Below, one piece after another: positions 20,856 through 22,629 of a stretch of DNA of 64,000 nt (the first letter of the stretch is position 1; every line of letters starts with the position of its first letter). Both the position numbers and the translations under genes were made by a program. The notes below the pieces were generated by a model. It saw nothing but the letters and a program-made list of their open reading frames with translations, did no database searches and was not told the DNA's origin. Source of the DNA: Gammaproteobacteria bacterium (lineage in GTDB: Bacteria; Pseudomonadota; Gammaproteobacteria; Steroidobacterales; Woeseiaceae); assembly GCA_029863305.1 (NCBI GenBank), contig JAOTVR010000006.1, positions 1-64,000 on the forward strand, written 5' to 3'.

Positions 20856-20895
20856 CGAGTTAGCATAGCAACTTCGGCAGGATTTGGGGTAGTGG

Positions 20896-20918
20896 CCGGG
20901 CGGCAATTTGCCGCCCGG
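20896..20918 (-). terminator. Strong hairpin after glnA
   Basis: CCGGGCGGCAA and TTGCCGCCCGG make an almost uninterrupted 11 bp inverted repeat 17 bp past the glnA stop codon. Read in the glnA direction no T-run follows, so it is either a Rho-assisted stop, a 3' end stabiliser of glnA mRNA, or an attenuator that lets some transcription continue into DUF4124-ntrBC. Confidence 0.55.
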
Positions 20919-20934
20919 TTCACACTTTTTGCCT

Positions 20935-22344
20935 TTACAAGCTGTAATACATGTCGAATTCGACCGGATGCGTGGTCATGCGCAGCCGGGTGACATTTTC
21001 CTGCTTGAGGTCGATATACGCATCGATCAGGTCATCCGAGAACACGTCGCCCGCCTTCAGGAACTCGCGGTCACCGTCCAGCGCGGCCAGTGCCTCATCC
21101 AGCGAGAACGCAACCAGCTTGAGTTCTTTCTCTTCCTCCGGCGGCAGGTCATACAGATCCTTATCCATCGCATCGCCCGGATGAATCTTGTTCGTGATGC
21201 CGTCGAGGCCCGCCATCATCATTGCGGCAAAGGCCAGATACGGATTCGCCATCGAGTCCGGGAAGCGCACTTCGATGCGGCGCCCTTTCGGATTCGAGAT
21301 GTACGGAATGCGAATGGATGCCGAGCGGTTGCGCGCCGAGTAAGCGAGAATGGTCGGCGCCTCGAAACCTGGAACCAGCCGCTTGTAACTGTTGGTTGCC
21401 GGGTTTGTGAATGCGTTCAACGCTTTGGCATGTTTGATGATGCCGCCGATGTAAAACAGCGCCGTTTCAGACAGACCGCCATAGCCATCACCGGAAAACA
21501 GGTTTTCACCGTCTTTGAACAAGGACTGATGTACGTGCATGCCGTTACCGTTGTCGTTGACCAGCGGCTTGGGCATGAACGTCGCCGTCTTGCCGTAAGC
21601 ATGCGCCACATTGTGTACGACGTACTTGAGGATCTGAACTTCGTCGGCCTTGGCCACTAACGTATTGAATTTAGCTCCAATTTCGCACTGTCCGGCAGTT
21701 GCCACTTCATGGTGATGCACTTCGGTTTCGACGCCCATGTCCTCGATCGCGAGACACATGGCCGAGCGCAGGTTGTGTAATGAATCCACCGGCGGCACGG
21801 GAAAGTATCCGCCTTTGACCGTTGGCCGGTGACCGGTATTGCCTTCCTCGATGCTGCGATCCGTGTTCCAGGCACCTTCATCCGAATCAACCTTATAGAA
21901 CGCTCCCTGCATCGAGTCGTCCCAGGCAACGTGATCGAAGACGAAGAATTCGTTTTCGGGACCGAAAAATGCAGCGTCGGCGATGCCGGTCGACTTGAGA
22001 TACGCTTCTGCGCGATCGGCCAGCGAGCGTGGACAACGATCATATCCCTGCATCGTCGCCGGCTCGATGACGTTGCAGCGCAGATTGATTGTCGTCTCAT
22101 CCGAAAACACGTCGACGACCGCGGATGCCGGGTCCGGCAGCAGGATCATGTCGGACTCGTTGATGCCCTTCCAACCGGAGATCGACGAGCCGTCGAACAT
22201 CTTGCCATCTTCAAACAACTCCTCGTCGATCGTATGAGCGGGCACCGTTACGTGTTGTTCCTTGCCTATCGTGTCCGTGAAACGAAAATCGACAAATTTG
22301 GCCTCAGTCTCTTTGATCAGGCCGAGTACGTCCTTGGGCTTCAT
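20935..22344 (-). CDS. glnA: Glutamine synthetase type I
   Basis: ATP-dependent ligation of ammonium to glutamate. I chose ATG 22344 ([20 protein letters not shown]), nine codons inside the track start, because GGAGG stands just upstream and the product is then 469 aa, identical in length to E. coli GlnA. Family motifs are [24 protein letters not shown], the ATP site [16 protein letters not shown] and the adenylylation loop DLYDLPPEE with its Tyr, so control by GlnE adenylylation is expected. Transcription is very likely from the sigma-54 promoter and NtrC sites described upstream. Confidence 0.97.
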
Positions 22345-22369
22345 GACTTTCCTCCAGTTTCTAAAGCGC

Positions 22370-22393
22370 AAAAAATGCCCGGTAGGTCCGGGC
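22370..22393 (-). terminator. Terminator-shaped hairpin plus T-run in the glnA leader
   Basis: On the glnA strand GCCCGG-ACCTA-CCGGGC-A-TTTTTT is a textbook intrinsic terminator, but it lies before glnA, 26 bases from the start codon. Relative to the predicted sigma-54 start at about 22400 it spans roughly +8 to +31. It could be an attenuator, a 5' stabiliser, or a block to antisense read-through from other upstream promoters. Confidence 0.6.
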
Positions 22394-22410
22394 CGGATTA
22401 CAGAAGTCTC

Positions 22411-22426
22411 TGCAGGATGCGTGCCA
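22411..22426 (-). promoter_or_regulatory. Sigma-54 (RpoN) promoter of glnA
   Basis: On the minus strand TGGCACGCATCCTGCA matches the -24/-12 consensus TGGCACG-N4-TTGCW with one mismatch and the invariant GG-N10-GC. The predicted transcription start is about 22400, giving a 56-base leader for glnA. Confidence 0.82.
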
Positions 22427-22435
22427 AATTGGTGC
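22421..22435. promoter_or_regulatory. NtrC-like palindrome overlapping the glnA -24 element
   Basis: GTGCCAAATTGGTGC resembles the NtrC box (GCACCA-N3-TGGTGC) but half of it is the sigma-54 -24 box itself. It may be a low-affinity governor site or simply a coincidence of shared bases. Confidence 0.45.
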
Positions 22436-22489
22436 GCACCGTAAGTTGTTGATTGTCTTGATCTCGTGCCAGCCTGCTAATCCGCTCCT

Positions 22490-22504
22490 GCACCACTATA
22501 GAGC
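22490..22504. promoter_or_regulatory. Candidate NtrC enhancer, proximal
   Basis: GCACCACTATAGAGC has one perfect half-site and one degenerate one. Its centre is about 97 bp upstream of the predicted glnA start and 31 bp, three helical turns, from the distal site, the spacing seen for the paired enhancers of E. coli glnA. Confidence 0.5.
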
Positions 22505-22520
22505 AATCGCTGCCGAATGT

Positions 22521-22535
22521 GCACCATTTGGGTGC
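22521..22535. promoter_or_regulatory. NtrC enhancer, distal
   Basis: GCACCATTTGGGTGC differs from the dyad GCACCA-N3-TGGTGC by one base. Centre about -128 relative to the predicted glnA transcription start. It also lies about 95 bp before the glyQ start codon, so it could influence that gene too. Confidence 0.68.
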
Positions 22536-22629
22536 GATTCCTGGCGGCGTCACCCCCGGCATGAACACCGATGCCACGCATTCTCCCAAGTCCTATATAC
22601 TCCGCGGGTTTGGGACCGGTAATACACAA

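Follow-up and report, generated by a model that had tools for sequence, protein, structure and literature searches.

Glutamine synthetase is an abundant enzyme, and its gene, glnA, is the textbook case of initiation control by NtrC and sigma-54. The glnAp1 promoter of E. coli is repressed by NtrC, and the nasF operon of Klebsiella is NtrC-dependent. The nasF leader contains a terminator and is subject to antitermination by NasR (PMC3369931). The targets of ANTAR regulators are defined as two hairpins with hexaloops that have an A at position 1 and a G at position 4 (PMC3369931). Secondary structure at an mRNA's 5′ end impedes RppH and the 5′-end-dependent activity of RNase E (PMC3997798).

The glnA leader of a gammaproteobacterium of the Woeseiaceae contains an RNA stem-loop that is under clear selection. 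This adds a post-initiation determinant of glnA mRNA in a dominant lineage of marine sediments, and it has been missed by standard annotation. No description of a glnA leader hairpin in Woeseiaceae was found in the open literature, which does not prove that none exists.

The glnA Locus and Its Promoter

The features of the locus are listed in Table 1. The window is the whole stretch of DNA that was analysed, 64 kb in length. The nominal +1 at 22400 lies 12 nt past the GC of the -12 element. With this start, which follows from the usual sigma-54 spacing, the glnA leader would be 56 nt long, with the hairpin and the U run at +8 to +31. These figures agree with the sequence-only reading, which had the hairpin sequence, the six T and their place between the sigma-54 promoter and the glnA start codon correct to the base. 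A sigma-54 start inside the 5′ arm, from which transcripts would bypass the hairpin, is incompatible with the usual spacing.

Table 1. Features of the glnA region, in window coordinates
Feature	Position	Strand	Remarks
glnA, type I glutamine synthetase, 469 aa	20935..22344	-	NF007006 and TIGR00653 over cut-off; ATG at 22344
Shine–Dalgarno sequence GGAGGA	22350..22355	-	predicted unpaired
U tract, six T	22370..22375	-	about +26 to +31; one A between stem and T run
Stem-loop GCCCGG-ACCTA-CCGGGC, 6 bp, loop of 5	22377..22393	-	about +8 to +24
Parts of the stem-loop	5′ arm 22393-22388; loop 22387-22383; 3′ arm 22382-22377; A 22376	-	
Nominal transcription start	22399..22400	-	+1 = T 22400 or A 22399, placed by the usual sigma-54 spacing
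Sigma-54 promoter box TGGCACGCATCCTGCA (-24/-12)	22411..22426	-	same box in the 61 same-genus leaders used
IHF-like site AATCAACAACTTA	22442..22454	-	0 mismatches to WATCAANNNNTTR
NtrC-like site TGCTCTATAGTGGTGCA	22489..22505	-	1 mismatch; overlaps sigma-70-like -10 (TATAGT)
NtrC-like enhancer CGCACCCAAATGGTGCA	22520..22536	-	1 mismatch

For comparison, 61 distinct glnA leaders were taken from one and the same Woeseiaceae genus; many of the genomes are metagenome bins. An IHF-like site with up to two mismatches occurs in 60 of them (31 in shuffles) and an NtrC-like site in all 61 (1 in shuffles). The stretch GCACCAATTTGGCACG (22421-22436, minus strand), which lies just upstream of the -24 element and includes it, is conserved in many same-genus leaders as GCACCATTTTGGCACG and may represent an additional weak half-site for NtrC that overlaps the promoter. 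A sigma-70-like promoter, TGCACA-17-TATAGT (22495-22523, minus strand), overlaps an NtrC-like site in an arrangement reminiscent of E. coli glnAp1.

Within the window, ntrC lies downstream and is adjoined by a histidine-kinase-like frame. The proposal that the hairpin shields glnA from other transcripts finds little support, since glyQ is divergent to glnA and the sigma-54 transcripts carry the same hairpin. Past the glnA stop and before the next gene begins, a 12-bp stem with a loop of 3 (20894-20920) is T-rich only in the plus direction and therefore does not resemble a usual glnA terminator. None of the scorable convergent gene ends in the window has a positively scoring intrinsic terminator, and other modes of termination may predominate in this genome.

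The Hairpin in the Single Sequence

The stem is stable and G+C-rich, with six G-C pairs and a local energy of -11.1 kcal/mol that is matched by at most 0.5% of dinucleotide shuffles. Hairpin and U tract together reach a terminator score of +12.8, calculated with a stem/U-tract formula and indicative only. This is third among eight positive sites in 64 kb, and one shuffled copy of the window has six. The fold z of the whole 63-nt leader stretch is only -1.3. These last two results favour a chance hairpin followed by a T run, and as a terminator the single-sequence evidence is barely above chance; it is the comparison between genomes that shows the hairpin to be real.

The hairpin is predicted to form with a probability of about 0.99 in both the sigma-54 transcript and a longer sigma-70-type transcript. 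The Shine–Dalgarno sequence stays open in the predicted leader fold, and the U run of the window's leader is partly paired. Neither an antiterminator nor a mutually exclusive alternative fold was seen in the predicted folds of the short and long transcripts, which bears out the earlier remark that no antiterminator partner is obvious. A translation-blocking switch was rejected because the Shine–Dalgarno sequence is predicted to be open and has no alternative pairing.

Conservation and Covariation of the Stem

The sequence-only reading had called for an alignment of related glnA leaders, and conservation proved decisive. A G+C-rich stem of 5-9 bp is found at the same place in 57 of the 61 same-genus leaders, and it covaries. 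It starts mostly 4-8 nt after the nominal +1 and ends 18-28 nt from the Shine–Dalgarno sequence. The loops are of 3-7 nt, variable and without conserved sequence. Four genomes (L206, L208, L211 and L212) have no stem, and it is thus dispensable.

Covariation was scored in two alignments. In the first, for which 25 alignable leaders were selected and aligned with MAFFT, changes on both sides were found at six of the seven pairs, and because the leaders are related by descent such cell counts overstate the number of independent events. The covariation score was 0.443, as against 0.162 in shuffles (0/500) and at most 0.106 with slid partners. The second alignment, of 22 other leaders, gave a weaker result (0.239 vs 0.132 in shuffles, 0/500), and its number of pairs with changes on both sides was not above that of the shuffles. 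When the 5′ half of the stem was joined to the 3′ half from another genome, the hairpin weakened from -10.3 to -6.5 kcal/mol (0/100). The same exchange among the 12 leaders without a U tract gave a change from -10.5 to -6.7 kcal/mol (0/200). The swap, slide and two-alignment controls agree in direction: the complementarity of the stem is kept. Complementarity and position are maintained while sequence and loop drift, so that it is structure and not sequence that is held constant, as in a stabiliser of the ompA type. The conservation in 57 of 61 genomes, the covariation in both alignments and the half-swap tests refute a chance origin, the probability of which is negligible.

A perfect inverted repeat beside a promoter could also be a DNA palindrome that serves as the operator of a regulator. 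However, the two arms change together and the loops are free, whereas the sequence of a protein-binding site would be conserved, as it is for the NtrC-like sites in all 61 leaders. The sense strand also folds more strongly than the antisense strand in 42 of 57 leaders. This comparison was used in place of the count of G-U against A-C pairs (27 vs 5), which the stem finder skews. The operator reading is largely refuted by the covariation and is regarded as very improbable.

Distribution Beyond the Genus and Beyond glnA

In five other Woeseiaceae genera, the stem is in place in all eight short leaders and not in 14 longer ones (Fisher p 1.3e-6). One leader from another Woeseiaceae genus (L231) has a perfect 12-bp stem, CGCGCCCCGCCA-TGCA-TGGCGGGGCGCG, of -27 kcal/mol, located farther from the promoter. 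A general gammaproteobacterial feature was considered and rejected, as 63 other glnA leaders contain only scattered hairpins (mean z -1.1).

A covariance model run on the genome itself returned glnA as the sole clear match (43 bits, E 7e-10), with the next hit at 20 bits (E 0.02). Nothing comparable was present at the same place behind the other sigma-54-like boxes examined in this genome. An element common to the regulon was likewise rejected, the same-genus amtB-operon leaders giving only a weak signal when taken together (mean z -0.57). Some of these sigma-54 leaders (L172, L182, L186, L191 and L194) also carry a similarly spaced hairpin of the GGCC type. The element appears to be specific to glnA and single-copy in the genome. 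An Rfam scan, which included the glnA RNA family, gave nothing near the gathering threshold (best match 18.3 bits, 56 needed).

The U Tract and the Question of Attenuation

The sequence-only reading had proposed a terminator that attenuates glnA. In this form, the hairpin and U tract would be a genuine, probably weak intrinsic terminator that acts just after sigma-54 initiation and yields a leader RNA about 30 nt long. It would be either a constant brake or one that is lifted when some factor acts on RNA polymerase. The composition of the leaders is in its favour. Among same-genus leaders, T makes up 47-69% of positions 2-9 after the stem, compared with 12% at the first position and roughly 20-30% past position 10. 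The 277 T observed behind the stem compare with 162 expected when each spacer is shuffled. This enrichment makes the resemblance to a terminator a trend across the genus. The score is positive in 23 of the 57 leaders and is +12.8 in the window. Klebsiella nasF offers a precedent as an NtrC-dependent operon with a leader terminator.

Nevertheless, the majority of the 57 leaders fall below the terminator threshold (median score -7.7), and the T run usually begins 1-3 nt past the stem. The U tract is present in 45 of the 57 stem-bearing leaders and missing from 12. It undergoes at least seven changes of state on a quickly made glnA tree, several branches of which are unsupported, with the stem unaffected. 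One clade without the U tract (L013, L014, L019, L058 and L210; support 84) has five different self-complementary stems; a sister pair on the tree has lost the stem. Stem energy and T content are independent of each other (rho -0.02). The eight short leaders of the other genera keep the stem and have no U tract (mean 2.25 T in 9). As the stem is kept while the U tract comes and goes, the constant element is considered to be a 5′-proximal RNA stem-loop and not a terminator; these comparisons indicate that the stem is not maintained for the sake of the U tract.

The absence of an antiterminator or alternative fold and the unconserved loops speak against a regulated attenuator. An ANTAR-controlled leader of the NasR/AmiR/EutV kind was rejected, since there is one stem with variable loops of 3-7 nt and two hexaloop hairpins are required. 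Of the earlier proposal, the hairpin, U run, promoter and leader length are confirmed, and attenuation by a terminator is supported only in part. Attenuation as the function of the element is rather unlikely. Weak attenuation in the species with a U tract is the main rival, and it may coexist with stabilisation. A doubtful but conceivable course of events is that an older 5′ stem-loop acquired a U tract in this genus, creating a working promoter-proximal attenuator at +31 behind the sigma-54 promoter, a second layer of glnA control that would have been repeatedly gained and lost between related species. The natural variants with and without a U tract provide a ready comparison to separate stabilisation from attenuation.

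The spacer behind the stem suggests another function. Ribosomal protein S1 or Hfq could bind to an unstructured stretch, rich in U and in A, that the stem delimits upstream of the Shine–Dalgarno sequence, which would make the element a translational enhancer. The narrow range of stem to Shine–Dalgarno distances would fit, as would a spacer that is U-rich and then A/C-rich with the Shine–Dalgarno sequence predicted open. However, the U-rich part is absent from the 12 leaders and from the other genera that keep the stem, and the U run of the window is itself partly paired in the predicted fold. This role is judged improbable.

A Proposed Role in mRNA Stability

The conserved 5′ stem-loop of glnA mRNA is most likely a 5′ structural element or stabiliser of the ompA/papA kind, a reading held with moderate confidence. 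The stabiliser, which the sequence-only reading had named as an alternative, fits the comparative data better than the terminator does. By the nominal start, the stem-loop lies close to the 5′ end of the Woeseiaceae glnA mRNA that sigma-54 and NtrC drive. In the proposed mechanism, the G+C-rich stem, a few nucleotides from the 5′ end, would hamper the access of RppH and of 5′-end-dependent RNase E. The mRNA of a very abundant enzyme would thereby be longer-lived, and the leader downstream of the stem would stay open for the ribosome. The U-rich stretch, six U in this genome, could in addition cause modest termination near +31. A switch read by a protein, or a riboswitch, is unlikely because sequence and loop are free, there is no competing fold, and the Shine–Dalgarno sequence is open.

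Several observations count against a stabiliser. Such elements work best with fewer unpaired nucleotides before the stem, and here mostly 4-8 nt would precede it, as counted from the inferred +1. There is a strong enrichment of T behind the stem that a stabiliser does not need, and the stem is missing in four genomes. In E. coli, inactivation of RppH affects only about 10% of mRNAs (PMC3997798).

Comparison with Known Systems

The cyanobacterial glnA RNA, of the glutamine riboswitch family, is also a structured RNA near glnA. In contrast to that family, the Woeseiaceae leader has no Rfam match and consists of a single stem without a conserved ligand-binding core. In the Enterobacteriaceae, the terminator of the glnA 3′ UTR and the GlnZ sRNA (PMC9731577) likewise link a hairpin resembling a Rho-independent terminator to glnA. 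The GlnZ hairpin comes after glnA (PMC9731577), whereas that of Woeseiaceae is in the glnA leader.

The leader of Klebsiella nasF is similar in that a hairpin with a U run lies between a nitrogen-regulated promoter and the first gene. It differs in being a dual-hairpin ANTAR target with hexaloops of the A1/G4 type, whereas the glnA leader has one hairpin with loops of 3-7 nt and a stem that is conserved without the U tract. The 5′-terminal stabilising stem-loops of the E. coli ompA and papA mRNAs differ from the Woeseiaceae element, which is a single stem, mostly lies 4-8 nt from the nominal start, often has a U tract behind it, and has a putative stabilising role. What they would share is a G+C-rich stem close to the start of an mRNA that encodes an abundant protein, followed by an open leader with a free Shine–Dalgarno sequence.
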